Source: Acidobacteriota bacterium (GTDB lineage Bacteria; Acidobacteriota; Blastocatellia; UBA7656). From it: a DNA stretch of 64,000 bases. Positions within the stretch are counted from its first letter, which is position 1. Each line of letters starts with the position of its first letter. The position numbers were made by a program, and so were the translations under genes. The notes beneath the pieces were generated by a model. The model was not told the origin of the DNA. It saw nothing but the letters and a program-made list of their open reading frames with translations, and searched no databases. Location: positions 92,402 through 156,401 of the forward strand of contig JBBPIG010000001.1 in assembly GCA_038040445.1 (NCBI GenBank), read 5' to 3'. Positions 56,033 through 64,000 of the stretch are shown here, in pieces.

Positions 56033-56596
56033 ATGATTCTGGTTATCGATAACTACGACTCGTTCACCTATAACCTCGTGCAGTATCTCGGCGAGTTGGG
56101 CGCTGACCTTGAAGTCTATCGCAACGACGCGGTTACGATTGAGCGGCTGCGCGAGCTTCGGCCTGAGCGGCTGCTCATCTCACCTGGGCCGGGCGTGCCG
56201 AGAGACGCGGGCCTCACGATCGCGGCAATCCGCGATTTTGCGGGAAAGATTCCGATACTGGGCGTATGTCTCGGACATCAAGCGATCGGCGAAGCGTTTG
56301 GAGGCAAGGTCGTTCGCGCGGCGACTTTGATGCACGGCAAGACGTCTGAGATCTGCCACGACTCAGCCACGATTTTTCGCGGGCTGCCCTATAGATTTAG
56401 AGCGACCAGGTATCACTCATTGATAGTCGAGAAAGAAAGCCTTCCCGATTCGCTCGAAGTCTCAGCCACAACACCCGATGGATTGATCATGGGATTGAGG
56501 CATCGCGAGTTCCAGGTGGAAGGGGTTCAGTTTCACCCTGAGTCGGTGATGACTGAGTACGGCAAGAAGCTGCTACAGAATTTCTTGAATCTTTGA
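56033..56596 (+). CDS. trpG: Anthranilate/aminodeoxychorismate synthase glutamine amidotransferase subunit
   Basis: This class I glutamine amidotransferase supplies ammonia for anthranilate synthesis from chorismate. The triad is visible: Cys in [18 protein letters not shown], and His and Glu in [35 protein letters not shown] and [10 protein letters not shown] are typical. The partner trpE or pabB is not in the window. The same type serves TrpG and PabA; the trpC, trpF and trpB genes downstream support TrpG. The start at 56033 lacks a strong ribosome-binding site. Confidence 0.92.
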
Positions 56597-56631
56597 ATCT
56601 CAAGCCCGCAGAGACTCAAACACGTTGCCCG

Positions 56632-57459
56632 ATGAGTTCTAACATTACAATCACGCAGGCGGATAAGCGCGGCTGTCTGATGCTCATTGCCGTAGTTGGC
56701 TTCGTTGGCGGAATAATCTTCCTGCCAGTATCGGTTTATGAAGTCTACAAACTGAGCACGGCCAAAGAGCCCGCGATACCGCAGGAGTTCTTGCCAGAGA
56801 TTCTGGATAAGAACAAGAAGCTCGTGGCCAACAAGGACAAGATCCCGGCGGAGCTCAATGAGGTGCTCGTCGCTTCCACCGAGAAGCTGCAGGTGGCTAT
56901 CGAGTTTGAGGAGCGCGAATCCATCCGAGGGTTCTGGTTTGGGCAGGCGCCGGAAGTGAGACTCGATCCGCCGGTGGATATCATCGTTTCTATGGAACCA
57001 ACTAGTCGCGACGACTGGGATCAGTACATCTCAGGGTTTGCTCGGAGTTTTACTCCGACGGTGAACGCGACTTTGCGAATCGACGAACAACTGATTCACA
57101 AGCCGCTGAAGTTGACTATTAATATGGGAGTCTCCTATCCGGTATCGGCGTCGAAGAAAGGCTATTTTTCCAATGCCTCCTTTTACGTGGAGCGCGAAAT
57201 AAGTCTGTTCCCAATATCCGGTAGTGAGGCCGCTATCAGGGAGCAGCACGATACGTGGACGAAGAGTCTTGATAAGGTCTATACGCAGGTCAGCTACGTC
57301 CTGCTCTTCGCGCTTTGTTATGTGACCTCTAAATCCGGGGGATTTCTGTATCGTGAGTACAAGGAGTTCAAATCACGCAGAGAGTTTGCAGCGAGGAAAG
57401 AATCGGAACTGCCTCAACTGACCGATACGTTATACGGGAAGGACAATCCAGAGTTGTAG
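56632..57459 (+). CDS. Two-helix membrane protein of unknown function inside the trp operon
   Basis: The 275-residue product has an N-terminal helix (CLMLIAVVGFVGGIIFLPVSVY) and a second near residue 225 (VSYVLLFALCYVTSKSGGFLY). Between them lies a soluble domain of about 190 residues with FEERESIRGFWFGQAPEVRL, PPVDIIVSMEPTSRDDWDQY and YPVSASKKGYFSNASFYVER. The tail is charged. The start at 56632, 35 bases after the trpG stop, has no clear ribosome-binding site. I do not recognise the family. It is more AT-rich than the trp genes, which suggests an insertion into the operon. Confidence 0.65.
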   Translation: MSSNITITQADKRGCLMLIAVVGFVGGIIFLPVSVYEVYKLSTAKEPAIPQEFLPEILDKNKKLVANKDKIPAELNEVLVASTEKLQVAIEFEERESIRGFWFGQAPEVRLDPPVDIIVSMEPTSRDDWDQYISGFARSFTPTVNATLRIDEQLIHKPLKLTINMGVSYPVSASKKGYFSNASFYVEREISLFPISGSEAAIREQHDTWTKSLDKVYTQVSYVLLFALCYVTSKSGGFLYREYKEFKSRREFAARKESELPQLTDTLYGKDNPEL

Positions 57460-58366: not shown

Positions 58367-59037
58367 GTCGAGTCAAAACAAAAATCTGCGGCGTCCGAAC
58401 CCTGGAAGAAGCACAGGCAGCGGTGGACGCTGGAGCCGATGCGCTGGGGTTCAACTTCTGGCGGCAGAGTGCCCGCTATATCGAACCTCACGCTGCACGC
58501 GAAGTGATCACCGGGCTCTCGCCGATCGTGTGCACAGTGGGCGTGTTCGTTGACGAAGAAGCCAATCGCATAGTGGACATCGCTTCGGAGCTTGGTCTGA
58601 GCGCGGTCCAGTTGCACGGCGACGAGTCGCCAGAATTCTGTGACAGCCTCGGCTCGATCGAGACGATCAAGGCCATTCGCGTCGGGCAAGATTTCGATTT
58701 GAGCTTGATCGAGAATTATCGAGTGAGCATGGTTTTGTTGGATTCGAGCATCGAAGGCAGCCACGGCGGTACAGGCCGGAGGTTTGACTGGCGAGTAGCG
58801 ATCGAAGCGAAACGCCTGGCGCCGATCATTCTTGCAGGCGGGCTCACGACCGAGAATGTTTGGGACGCGATCACTTACGTGAGACCAGCGGCGATTGATG
58901 TGTGCAGCGGTGTCGAAGCCGAGCCCGGCCGCAAAGACCTGGATAAGCTGCGACGATTCATGGCGGTGGTCGCGCATGCGAACGCGTTGATAGTCGGCGA
59001 AGAAGAAGGCGGGGTTCGAACGGGATTCTCTCAATGA
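58363..59037 (+). CDS. trpF: Phosphoribosylanthranilate isomerase
   Basis: TrpF isomerises phosphoribosylanthranilate. The 224-residue barrel shows [20 protein letters not shown] (catalytic Cys near residue 8), [54 protein letters not shown] and [14 protein letters not shown]. The catalytic Asp lies in [16 protein letters not shown]. Its ATG overlaps the trpC stop and its stop overlaps the trpB ATG, so it sits in the core of a coupled trp operon. Confidence 0.95.
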
Positions 59038-60284
59038 GCAAAGGCGAAGGCGAGAAGTCATATCAACAACCTGACGCGGCGGGGCACTTCGGGCCTTATG
59101 GCGGCCGGTTCGTTCCTGAGACACTGATGCATCCGATCGAGGAGCTGATCGCTGCCTATGAAGCTGCGAAGCGCGATCCCGCGTTTCATCGCGAGCTTGA
59201 ATACCTGCTGGCGAACTACGTCGGGCGGCCCACACCGCTGATGCTAGCTCAACGCCTGAGCGATCATCTCGGCGGCGCGCGAATCTACCTCAAGCGCGAA
59301 GACCTCTGTCACACCGGCGCGCACAAGATCAACAACGCCGTCGGGCAAGCCTTGCTGGCGCGGCGAATGGGCAAGTCTCGAATCATCGCCGAGACCGGCG
59401 CAGGCCAGCACGGCGTCGCCACAGCAACCGTGTGCGCACTGATGAACTTGAAGTGTGTCGTCTACATGGGCACGGAGGACATGCGACGGCAGGAATTGAA
59501 CGTCTTTCGTATGCGGCTGCTCGGCGCGGAAGTGGTCGGGGTCGAGTCGGGAGCCCGCACGCTCAAGGACGCGATCAACGAAGCGCTACGCGATTGGGTC
59601 ACAAACGTCGCAGACACTTATTACTTGTTAGGCTCGGTGATGGGGCCGCATCCTTACCCGATGATGGTCCGCGACTTTCAATCGGTGATAGGCCGCGAAG
59701 CCCGCAAGCAGATTCTCGAGGCCGAGGGCCGCTTGCCCGATCTGCTGATCGCATGCGTCGGCGGCGGCAGCAATTCGATAGGCTTGTTCCACGAGTTCAT
59801 CGCCGACGAGAGCGTGCGAATGACCGGCGTCGAAGCGGGTGGACGAGGCGAGGCGCTGGGCGAGCACGCGGCGCGCTTTTCGGGCGGGAGCCCGGGCGTG
59901 CTGCAGGGAACTCGGAGCTACGTGCTTCAAGATGAGCACGGGCAAATCTCGACAACGCATTCGGTATCGGCGGGTTTGGATTATTCGGCGATCGGCCCCG
60001 AGCATGCTTACCTTCACGACATCGGACGAATCAGTTATTCGAAGGCGAGCGACACGGAAGCGCTTGAAGCATTTCATCTCTTGGCGCGGCTTGAAGGAAT
60101 CATCCCGGCGCTTGAAAGCGCTCACGCGATAGCTGAAGTGATGAAGGTGGCGCCTTCGATGACGAGCGAGCAGGTGATCGTGGTGAATCTCTCTGGTCGA
60201 GGAGACAAGGATGTAAATACCGTCGCTGAGTCCTGGCCTGTGGATCGAGCGTCGACTGAAGGCGCAGGCCGAACTGGGTCTTGA
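59034..60284 (+). CDS. trpB: Tryptophan synthase beta chain
   Basis: TrpB joins indole and serine with pyridoxal phosphate. The 416-residue protein has [34 protein letters not shown] (PLP Lys in AHK), [17 protein letters not shown], and [14 protein letters not shown], and ends with [13 protein letters not shown] 20-residue Arg/Ala/Gly tail ([19 protein letters not shown]) is unlike most TrpB proteins and lies just before the inserted paralogue pair. Its ATG overlaps the trpF stop. The alpha subunit, normally next, is displaced by about 2 kb and broken. Confidence 0.96.
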
Positions 60285-60319
60285 GATGAGTGTGTCGAGG
60301 AGCTGAAAAGGGGTTAACT

Positions 60320-61234
60320 TTGAAACATCTAGATCCGAGCCGAATGTATAACTTGCTTCGGAGCCGTCAGCTCGAAGGAACCAATTCTCAAGGTCCCGAT
60401 GTAGGAGCATGGATAGTCACTTCGATGCGCATCCTACGAGGATGGGGCAGTCCTCCAGAATCTGCCAAGCCCTACTCTGTCGAGCATTGGCCTCCACTAG
60501 AACCTCCGGGCATGGACGCCTTGGCTAAGCAGTCCAGGATACTGGGATATCAACGGGTGAGGAATACGCTTGAATGCAAGCTGGCAATTGCTTCAGGGCA
60601 TCTAGTCTCCGCCGAGTTCGATTGTAAGGATGAATGGTATTGGGAAATGGAGGGCGTCAGGGAAGTGCCGGAATCAGCACCAGCAAGAGTCAGTCTGATG
60701 ATGATGGGCTATAACGACCACACAGGAATGTTTACCGTCCAGAACTGCTGGGCTGCTGATCTGGGAGATCGAAGCCTTGGATATCTATCCTACGATTTCT
60801 TTGAAAGGTACTTCTTGGAATCTTGGGCAACTAGTGGTCTGTACAGGAAGGGCGGAGCGTCGGATCAGAATGGACTTGTGGAGATGCGATCGAGTACCGA
60901 AGACATCTTGGGAGGGTCGTTGCACGCAGTCGAGCTTTGTGACTCGACAGAGGATGAGTGTATCGGATGGGCATTCGCAGTTTGTCGCGACGTCTTCTTA
61001 GATATTGAAGAGCTGTTTGTGCGACCTGCTTTCAGGGGCAACAACAACGGTAATAGACTTGCTGGAATGTTGAGGGAATTAGCGGATAGTTTGGAGCTGC
61101 CGCTTCGGCTCTGGGTTGCGCATGCAGATTCAGATCAAGCAAATCTCGCAATTTTAGAGAAGATGGCTGAGTGCCTATCCTTGAAGTTGGGGCCAAGCGA
61201 CGTTCAATGGGCAGGTCTAAGAGCCATCGCCTAG
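60320..61234 (+). CDS. Papain-like (C1) fragment fused to a GNAT-like domain, copy 1
   Basis: I do not know this fusion as a named family. Residues 1-170 match the second half of a C1 cysteine peptidase: LLRSRQLEGTNSQGPDVGA, ESAKPYSVEHWPPLEP, LAIASGHLVSAEFDC and MMGYNDHTGMFTVQNCWAADLG. The half with the catalytic Cys is absent. The active-site His is replaced (RVSLMMMGYN), while the Asn is kept in QNCW. Residues 180-304 are GNAT-like: ECIGWAFAVCRDVFLDIEELF, RPAFRGNNNGNRLAGML and LWVAHADSDQANLAILEKM; the acetyl-CoA loop is degenerate (RGNNNG). TTG at 60320 follows AAAAGGGG; ATG at 60344 is an alternative. AT-richer than trpB and clearly paralogous to the next gene. Confidence 0.6.
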   Translation: MKHLDPSRMYNLLRSRQLEGTNSQGPDVGAWIVTSMRILRGWGSPPESAKPYSVEHWPPLEPPGMDALAKQSRILGYQRVRNTLECKLAIASGHLVSAEFDCKDEWYWEMEGVREVPESAPARVSLMMMGYNDHTGMFTVQNCWAADLGDRSLGYLSYDFFERYFLESWATSGLYRKGGASDQNGLVEMRSSTEDILGGSLHAVELCDSTEDECIGWAFAVCRDVFLDIEELFVRPAFRGNNNGNRLAGMLRELADSLELPLRLWVAHADSDQANLAILEKMAECLSLKLGPSDVQWAGLRAIA

Positions 61235-61287
61235 ACGTCGATAGACTCTCTACCGCGAGTCTATTGATTGATAGCCCGACCTTAGTT

Positions 61288-62208
61288 ATGAGTCGAACGA
61301 GCGTACAATATAACTTTGTGAGAAGTCGACAACTCGAAGGAACCTACGCTCAAGGCCGCGAAGTGGGGGCATCGATTGTTACTTCTATGCGGATTATGCG
61401 AGGGTGGGGCAAGCCGCCAGAATCCTCGTGGCCTTACTCTCCCGAGCAATGGCCTCCCCAAGAACCTCCACACATGGATGCTTTAGCCAAAGAATCAAGA
61501 TTACTTGCCTATCAACGCGTTAGAAGTTCTATCGAATGCAAAGCGGCACTGGCATCTGGTGTTCCTGTGTCTGCAGCCTTTGATATTACAGATCAGTGGT
61601 TTTCAGCAATCAACGGGATGATAGGGGTGCCATCCGCGAATGCAACAATCGTAGGAGGGCACTCTGTTATGATGACACACTATGACGATAACTCAGGGTT
61701 ATTTACCTTCGAAACCTGGTGGGGCGCTGAATGGGGCGATCGAGGCTTTGGATACCTCCCGCACACTTACTTTGATAGATACTTGACAGAAGCTTGGGTA
61801 CTAAGCACTCCATACGAGCGGCCAAGATGGTCCTTAGATGAACCAATGGTCATGGAGATTGAATGGGGCGCGCAAGATTTCCTTGGCGGCGTACTACACG
61901 GTGTTGAGCTTTATGACTCAGCGCAGGACGAGTGTATCGGCTGGGCATTCACTGTTTGTCGTGATGGCTTCTTGGATATTGAAGAGTTGTTCGTGCGACC
62001 CGCCTTCAGGGGGACGAATAATGGGAACATACTTACGCGAATGTTAGGAGTACTAGCGACTCGCTTACGGCTGCCGCTGCGACTTTGGGTTGCACACGCA
62101 GATTTAAGTCAAGACAATCTCGTGACGGTAGGGAAGATAGTGAGGCGTCTTTCTTTGACCTTAGTGCCGAGCGATGTGCGGTGGGCGGGTCTGAAAGCCA
62201 TCGCCTAG
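61288..62208 (+). CDS. Papain-like (C1) fragment fused to a GNAT-like domain, copy 2
   Basis: This 306-residue paralogue aligns with copy 1 along its whole length, with well over half of positions identical by eye: FVRSRQLEGTYAQGREVGA, ESSWPYSPEQWPPQEPP, GVPVSAAFDITDQWF, then GGHSVMMTHYDDNSGLF with the C1 active-site His at residue 125, and GAEWGDRGFGYLP. The Asn position reads ETWWG, so copy 2 keeps His and lacks Asn, the reverse of copy 1. The first half of the peptidase domain with the Cys is again missing. The GNAT-like half has FLDIEELFVRPAFRGTNNGN and LWVAHADLSQDNLVTVGKI. No strong ribosome-binding site precedes the ATG. Likely roles are binding or regulation and not proteolysis. Confidence 0.6.
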   Translation: MSRTSVQYNFVRSRQLEGTYAQGREVGASIVTSMRIMRGWGKPPESSWPYSPEQWPPQEPPHMDALAKESRLLAYQRVRSSIECKAALASGVPVSAAFDITDQWFSAINGMIGVPSANATIVGGHSVMMTHYDDNSGLFTFETWWGAEWGDRGFGYLPHTYFDRYLTEAWVLSTPYERPRWSLDEPMVMEIEWGAQDFLGGVLHGVELYDSAQDECIGWAFTVCRDGFLDIEELFVRPAFRGTNNGNILTRMLGVLATRLRLPLRLWVAHADLSQDNLVTVGKIVRRLSLTLVPSDVRWAGLKAIA

Positions 62209-62239
62209 AAAAGCCGAGCAAATCGCGAATTAATCTCTC

Positions 62240-62590
62240 GTGCTTGCGCGCGGCGGTGTGCAATCTGATCAAGCTAGCAAACCGAATGAGAAGAATCGAA
62301 ATGAGTTCAACGGCCCGAGGCGCGAAGGGCGTCAGGGGTTCATCCCATACATGACCGCAGGCGATCCTTCTCTCGAATCAACAGAGCAAATCATTCTCGA
62401 ACTCGAAAGCAGCGGGGCTGACATCATCGAACTCGGCGTGCCGTTCTCTGATCCGATGGCCGACGGTCCGGTGATTCAAAGAGCTTCGGGCAGAGCCCTC
62501 ACCGATCACATTAGTGTTCGCGACTGTCTCGAACTCGTGCGGCGAGTCCGAAGAACGAAGTCCACATGGTCTGTTCACCTCTTTGGTTGA
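62240..62590 (+). pseudogene. trpA: Truncated tryptophan synthase alpha chain
   Basis: The N-terminal third of TrpA is clear: GRQGFIPYMTAGDPSLEST, SGADIIELGVPFSDPMADGP (with the catalytic Glu and Asp) and VIQRASGRALTDHISVRDCL. Homology stops after ELVRRVRRTKST, and the frame ends 8 residues later, at about 100 of the usual 265 residues. The 5' end is also odd: the TrpA-like frame has only upstream GTG codons (62240 or 62258), while a good ATG (62287, MRRIEMSS) is in another frame, so a frameshift is possible. The sequence beyond 62590 belongs to another, convergent gene. An active alpha subunit cannot come from this copy; the rest may lie beyond the window if an insertion split it. Confidence 0.85.
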
Positions 62591-62611
62591 TCTCTATCAT
62601 CGGAACTGAGA

Positions 62612-63946
62612 TCAGCGTATTCGCCTGATCATCTCAGCGGGAGTCTCAAAGGCTAATTGTCCGATCAATGGATGAGTTAGAAGATAGTTGACGGTTTGGT
62701 CCAGGTGAGAATGTTGATCGGGGTGGATTGATACATCACTCCTCACAACGAGGGCTAAATACGGACTGTCGGAACTGGTCAGCACAGTGTTTACGATTCT
62801 ACACAAACTCCATGGGTTGAACGCTAAGTTCAACGTCAGATAATCCTCATCATTCGCCTCGTAACAAGTGAGCTCCTTTGGAGAGCTATTCAGATAGAAA
62901 TTGGCGCCTGCTACCTTCACCTGGATCGAATGTGGCTTTCCGTCCTTCAACCAGGTTGGGACGGGGACGTTAAAAGAATGCTTACCGTCACCCTTGCCGG
63001 CGGCTAGCAGATCCTGCCTAAAGGTAGCGGCGATGGCTGTAGTCAGTGGATGGTCACCTTCATATATTTCCACCTCGATGGGTATCCCGGATCGGTTCTT
63101 ATCATATGCCCAACCTGAAATGAACTCGCAATCAGCTCGATCCAGATATCCTTCATACATTCCATTTGAAGGATGCGGCTTAGAACCAGAACCTCGCGGA
63201 AGCGCCGATCCTACTTGAGGGTTGATATTCTCTGAGCACGCTTTCAGCTCAACCTGGCTGGACGATATGGCGGGCCAATCAGGGCGACCGGCGCTCAACG
63301 GGATAATCCATAGTCTTCGTCTCAGGTACGAGCCAGGTTTTCTAAAATCGGTTCTGGAGGGGCGATACGGACGTTGCGGGATCTGTGAATAATCGAGAAA
63401 GTTGCCGGTGAAAGGTTCCTCAATGTGCCCTCCTTTCTGCCCCGGCTCCAAGGTCAGGTCAAAGCGCGCTCCAAGCTTTTCTATCAGTTTTAGGGTCGCA
63501 TTGTTCATCCAGTGATCGCCGAAGCGGAAGTATGAGCAACGTTCATTAAGCGATTCGCGAAAGGACTCAAAGCCCATTCGTAAGCAGGAGTTAATCCAGT
63601 CCTGACTTGCGAGGTCTACAATCCATTTATCTAAGCTCTCATTCCACCGCCAGGGATGCGCGTGCAATCCAATCGCATCACCAGCCCGTTTGATTTCTTT
63701 TATCAACGAGTGGTAGCGCGTCACGGCCCACGAGGCTGATCCGTAGGTGCTTGCTATCTGAGGGTCGATCCGAAAGAACCATGAGAAATGTACGGGTGAT
63801 CCCGTTGCAGCCTCGAGACGAGGTCTAAGCTTGCTGAAGAGTTCATAGGTGGCTTCAAAACCGCTCCAGTCCTTTTGAACACTCGGATCAATCAGACGCT
63901 CGTCCGGCTCGACATCAATGCACATTACAACTGGTATCTTCTTCAT
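62612..63946 (-). CDS. Polysaccharide deacetylase-like protein with a carbohydrate-associated C-terminal domain
   Basis: The N-terminal half resembles the CE4/NodB deacetylase fold: PVVMCIDVEPDERLID with the metal-binding Asp, HFSWFFRIDPQ, and DAIGLHAHPWRW with a His-x-His pair. Near residues 265-365 lies a small domain with YLDRADCEFISGWAYD, PIEVEIYEGDHPL and FNVPVPTWLKDGKPHSI, a type often fused to glycosyltransferases and capsule proteins. The C-terminus is a second catalytic-side region with LVVRSDVSIHPDQHSHLDQ. The ATG at 63946 matches the usual start; 63970 is an alternative. AT-richer than the trp genes and convergent with broken trpA, it may be the edge of an acquired glycan island. 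Confidence 0.75.
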   Translation of the reverse strand: MKKIPVVMCIDVEPDERLIDPSVQKDWSGFEATYELFSKLRPRLEAATGSPVHFSWFFRIDPQIASTYGSASWAVTRYHSLIKEIKRAGDAIGLHAHPWRWNESLDKWIVDLASQDWINSCLRMGFESFRESLNERCSYFRFGDHWMNNATLKLIEKLGARFDLTLEPGQKGGHIEEPFTGNFLDYSQIPQRPYRPSRTDFRKPGSYLRRRLWIIPLSAGRPDWPAISSSQVELKACSENINPQVGSALPRGSGSKPHPSNGMYEGYLDRADCEFISGWAYDKNRSGIPIEVEIYEGDHPLTTAIAATFRQDLLAAGKGDGKHSFNVPVPTWLKDGKPHSIQVKVAGANFYLNSSPKELTCYEANDEDYLTLNLAFNPWSLCRIVNTVLTSSDSPYLALVVRSDVSIHPDQHSHLDQTVNYLLTHPLIGQLAFETPAEMIRRIR

Positions 63947-64000
63947 AGATAGTGAGCCAGCCAAGTGCATCTGCCACTCAGAGTGACTGATGCTGTGACT

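Follow-up and report, generated by a model that had tools for sequence, protein, structure and literature searches.

Tandem genes combining a truncated papain-like peptidase domain with a GNAT-like domain between trpB and a trpA fragment in an Acidobacteriota bacterium

In the window analysed here, which is the whole 64,000-nucleotide stretch of DNA from an Acidobacteriota bacterium, the trp genes lie in the order trpG, an uncharacterised gene, trpC, trpF and trpB. They are followed by two open reading frames, X1 and X2, by a fragment of trpA (trpA'), by a gene on the minus strand and finally by an intact trpA, which begins about 170 bases past the end of the window (Table 1). The gene between trpG and trpC encodes a hypothetical protein with apparent hydrophobic segments and without a confident family match. 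X1 and X2 are intact tandem frames in the same orientation and, as a preliminary description of this DNA had stated, they are adjacent paralogues: the proteins are 59% identical, and the DNA is 69% identical over about 900 bases. X1 starts with TTG and X2 with ATG. The sequence AAAAGGGG lies a few bases 5' of the TTG start of X1, and no clear ribosome-binding site was seen before X2. A search for a promoter or a terminator for the two genes found none.

Table 1. Features of the trpB-trpA region and its surroundings (window positions unless marked otherwise).
Feature	Positions	Strand	Remarks
Hypothetical gene between trpG and trpC	56593-57459	+	
trpB	59034-60284	+	directly upstream of X1
trpB-trpA slot	60285-62611		
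X1	60320-61234	+	truncated xylellain-type C1 remnant with a GNAT-like domain; has the Asn (QNCW) but not the His (GGH deleted)
X1, C1-derived half	60320-60868	+	without the catalytic Cys region
X1, GNAT-like half	60869-61231	+	loop RGNNNGN
X2	61288-62208	+	has the His (GGHSVMM) but not the Asn (ETWW); 59% identical to its paralogue X1
X2, C1-derived half	61288-61839	+	PF00112, E 1.3e-4; 3OIS
X2, GNAT-like half	61840-62205	+	loop RGTNNGN
trpA'	62276-62590	+	frameshifted, truncated 5' fragment of trpA
Gene between trpA' and intact trpA	62612-63970	-	452 residues
Intact trpA	contig 156573-157370		

The N-terminal residues of both proteins, about 180 in number, match the xylellain-type C1 peptidases. 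In the Pfam search, X2 matched PF00112 above the Pfam cut-off and X1 alone gave no C1 match, while a two-row profile of X1 and X2 reached xylellain (3OIS) with an E value of 3e-14. When the AlphaFold models were searched with Foldseek, 3OIS came first for both copies (E values of 5e-12 and 5e-8); the papain fold of the remaining part is present in both predicted models, and confidence in the X2 model is mostly 70-96 across the C1 part. Xylellain-type peptidases are known in bacteria and have been acquired by Caudoviricetes (PMC10380794). The alignment of X1 and X2 to xylellain begins at residue 102, the first ~97 residues being absent from both copies, and each copy starts at the PSR-L-F-I-Y position, past the Q-x-x-x-G-S-C helix that bears the catalytic Cys. 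No trace of this helix was found in the sequence upstream of the pair, and a search of the rest of the host genome for a separate Cys-half found none. The profile and structure matches bear out the earlier recognition of a papain-like half without its catalytic Cys region.

The other two catalytic residues are divided between the copies just as had been noted: in X1 the GGH tripeptide is deleted and QN is kept, and in X2 GGH is kept and ET stands in place of RN. The loss of the Cys is best regarded as derived, because this residue is kept in the one other C1 peptidase of the host genome, which is full-length with QGQLGSC, GGH and RNSWG (contig C51), and in 54 of the 54 viral-contig relatives with readable motifs; the full-length C1 of a congener (G001) also has it. 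Xylellain, a short C1A peptidase, is the best match in sequence and in structure to about 170-180 residues of X1 and X2. Unlike it, the two proteins lack the N-terminal third and the Cys, have lost the His or the Asn in turn, and carry an added GNAT-like domain at the C terminus. Stable folding of the C1 remnant without its central Cys helix may be in doubt. The full-length C1 gene of the host, with every catalytic residue present (L021:413-1225, plus strand), adjoins a chagasin (I42) inhibitor gene (L021:1291-1605, minus strand) on a different contig from X1 and X2, and a C1 and chagasin gene pair is also found in the congener (L004).

The C-terminal ~120 residues form a compact domain that is probably GNAT-like. 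PF00583 scored X1 at 20.3 bits (E value of 7e-4), just under the curated cut-off of 20.7, and X2 more weakly, also below the cut-off. The comparison by hhalign of the C-terminal half with 16 GNATs of the host genome gave 70%, against 8% for the best of 200 shuffles. Both models have the strand-strand-strand-helix-strand-helix order of GNATs, at low confidence (about 50-60 there), and the BFVD viral structure library returned weak N-acetyltransferase matches. With the GNATs (PF00583, PF13508) the domain appears to share the order of strands and helices around the acetyl-CoA loop, and it has the conserved VRPxFRG strand and the start of the loop. It differs from them in being only about 120 residues long and in its loop, which departs from the expected R/Q-x-x-G-x-G/A: the Arg and the last Gly are kept, and the first Gly is Asn in both copies. 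The degenerate loop had therefore been read correctly. The GNAT-like assignment itself is weak, as the domain remains below the threshold of all GNAT models and the confidence of the models is low there. Searched by itself, the GNAT half had no relative in 98 genomes or in the plasmids and viral contigs covered.

Matches in other genomes cover the C1 half only. Neither the C1-GNAT fusion nor a full-length ancestor of it was found in 58 relatives, 396 sampled genomes of the phylum, 162 genomes of the class, or the plasmids, phages and viral contigs searched, and two pattern scans of contigs, from close relatives only, likewise returned no fusion. No paper on such a fusion was found in the open-access literature, in agreement with the preliminary description, which knew of no system of this kind; the architecture appears to be rare or unique within the data searched. 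Proteobacterial GNAT/peptidase C39-like fusions also unite a GNAT domain with a papain fold in a single polypeptide, but they involve another peptidase family and have the opposite domain order.

Comparison of X1 with X2 gave a dN/dS of 0.20 (bootstrap 0.12-0.32), a value that comes from a single pair of genes with dS nearly saturated at about 1.4. By segment, dN/dS was 0.13 in the N-terminal part of the C1 remnant, 0.42 in the His/Asn core and 0.12 in the GNAT half. The His/Asn segment, with 40% identity and flanked by two well-conserved segments, is the least constrained structured part. The truncation and the fusion are common to both copies and are therefore older than the duplication. Together with the dN/dS of 0.20 this disfavours plain decay, although dS is close to saturation and the selection may have taken place in a donor. 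As dead C1 domains are here combined with purifying selection between copies, the binding or regulatory role proposed at the outset is reasonable, whereas the accompanying proposal that the copies are partners finds no support in the residue pattern.

Base composition and the neighbouring trpA fragment bear on where the genes came from. GC3 is 0.52 in X1 and 0.49 in X2, compared with 0.64-0.70 in the trp genes. The fragment trpA' has a frameshift at its beginning and breaks off near codon 100; its DNA is 80% identical to the host trpA and 80% identical to the trpA of the congener, and these two are 79% identical to each other. Because it is equally distant from both, trpA' seems to represent a third lineage within the genus. 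The low GC3 and the trpA' distances suggest that X1 and X2 were imported. Import via recombination in the trpB-trpA interval would be the simplest reading, and trpA' is probably a trace of that recombination. The minus-strand gene placed between the trpA fragment and the intact trpA has a lower GC content, and its product has weak similarity to polysaccharide deacetylases (E value of 0.12).

We give an even chance to the explanation that X1 and X2 are imported, tandemly duplicated pseudo-peptidase/GNAT fusions in which the GNAT-like half does selected work. The sequence shows in each protein a xylellain-type C1 domain without the N-terminal third and the nucleophile, with a compact GNAT-like domain at the C terminus; truncation and fusion came first, then duplication, and then divergence under purifying selection. 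The C1 remnant, presumably unable to cut peptides, may act as a scaffold or as a peptide- or protein-binding module. The GNAT-like domain, which is among the most constrained parts, would do the selected work, either through weak acyltransferase activity or by serving as a switch that binds acyl-CoA. The pair would have originated in a different lineage of the genus and entered by recombination in the trpB-trpA interval, leaving the trpA fragment behind.

It is possible, although we hold it to be a minority prospect, that X1 and X2 are recently imported leftovers; any function would have been confined to the donor, and the genes would now be drifting in a part of the operon that is itself broken. 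The adjacent trpA' has already suffered a frameshift and a truncation, a ribosome site is missing before X2, the composition of both genes is foreign and no orthologue of either occurs among the 162 class genomes. Against this, both frames are still open over more than 300 codons, and in simulations a neutral frame survived in 13-17% of cases at 0.05 substitutions per site and in <1% at 0.2. The dN/dS is clearly below 1, though this low value may date from the donor rather than from the present host.

The position of the pair raises a further explanation. In a relative from the same family (G005), MazE-MazF-MazE-like genes lie between trpB and trpA, and in G002 and G004 the slot holds a nucleotidyltransferase-HEPN (MNT-HEPN) pair, the one in G004 being named by its similarity to that of G002. 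In the congener G001 the end of another reading frame precedes trpA, and in G003 trpB and trpA follow each other without a gap. In other members of the class, where gaps were taken from gene coordinates and cargo was named by eye from translations, the slot contains a PQQ/sorbosone-dehydrogenase-like gene in four genomes belonging to one family; among its other occupants are a histidine kinase and an Hsp70-like gene. The trpB-trpA interval thus appears to be a variable insertion slot in the family and the class. Toxin-antitoxin systems with GNAT toxins, such as TacT and AtaT, exist, and X1 and X2 are paired, probably imported and lower in GC; they could form a toxin-antitoxin-like conflict module in which one GNAT-like domain hits a cellular target and the other copy restrains it. 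The slot lends this some positional support, drawn from few genomes and from a slot that is not exclusive to such modules but also holds ordinary genes in class relatives. However, the two proteins are alike in kind and in their degenerate loop, PADLOC gave no match to known defence families, and in place of the dissimilar antitoxin partner of a type II system there are two paralogues without an antitoxin family match, so we consider such a module unlikely. Quite unlikely, too, is the reading that X1 and X2 make up a novel module of two genes, for conflict or regulation, whose catalytically dead papain folds would steer a non-canonical GNAT and which would pass from congener to congener as cargo of the trpB-trpA slot, where relatives have toxin-antitoxin modules.

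The complementary loss of His and Asn had been taken to suggest that the two proteins act together. The pattern is real, and the genes are adjacent and co-oriented, as a heterodimer would have it in which the His of one copy and the Asn of the other form a putative binding site. The argument is undercut by the position of these residues in the structured segment under the weakest constraint, and by the search of the genome, which found no Cys-half elsewhere; moreover, neither copy has the Cys, and by our own arithmetic an exactly complementary pattern in two dispensable residues has a chance probability of up to 1/8. The complementary loss is therefore weak evidence for partnership, and we regard the heterodimer as very unlikely. 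A split protease shared by X1 and X2 is rejected, since neither has the Cys and the search of the genome found no Cys-half. That the C1 remnant is a decoy or sponge binding a chagasin-type inhibitor or the substrates of an active C1 peptidase is highly improbable: a full-length xylellain-type gene does adjoin a chagasin gene in the host and in the congener, but chagasin binds an intact active-site cleft, part of which is missing in X1 and X2, and in the host that locus lies on another contig.

If the imported fusions are functional, as in the explanation that we favour, they would represent a bacterial peptidase fold reused without catalysis in an acetyltransferase-like protein, with two diverging copies kept. 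At the level of the family, the trpB-trpA junction seems to take up variable cargo, including toxin-antitoxin modules, within an operon for amino-acid biosynthesis.
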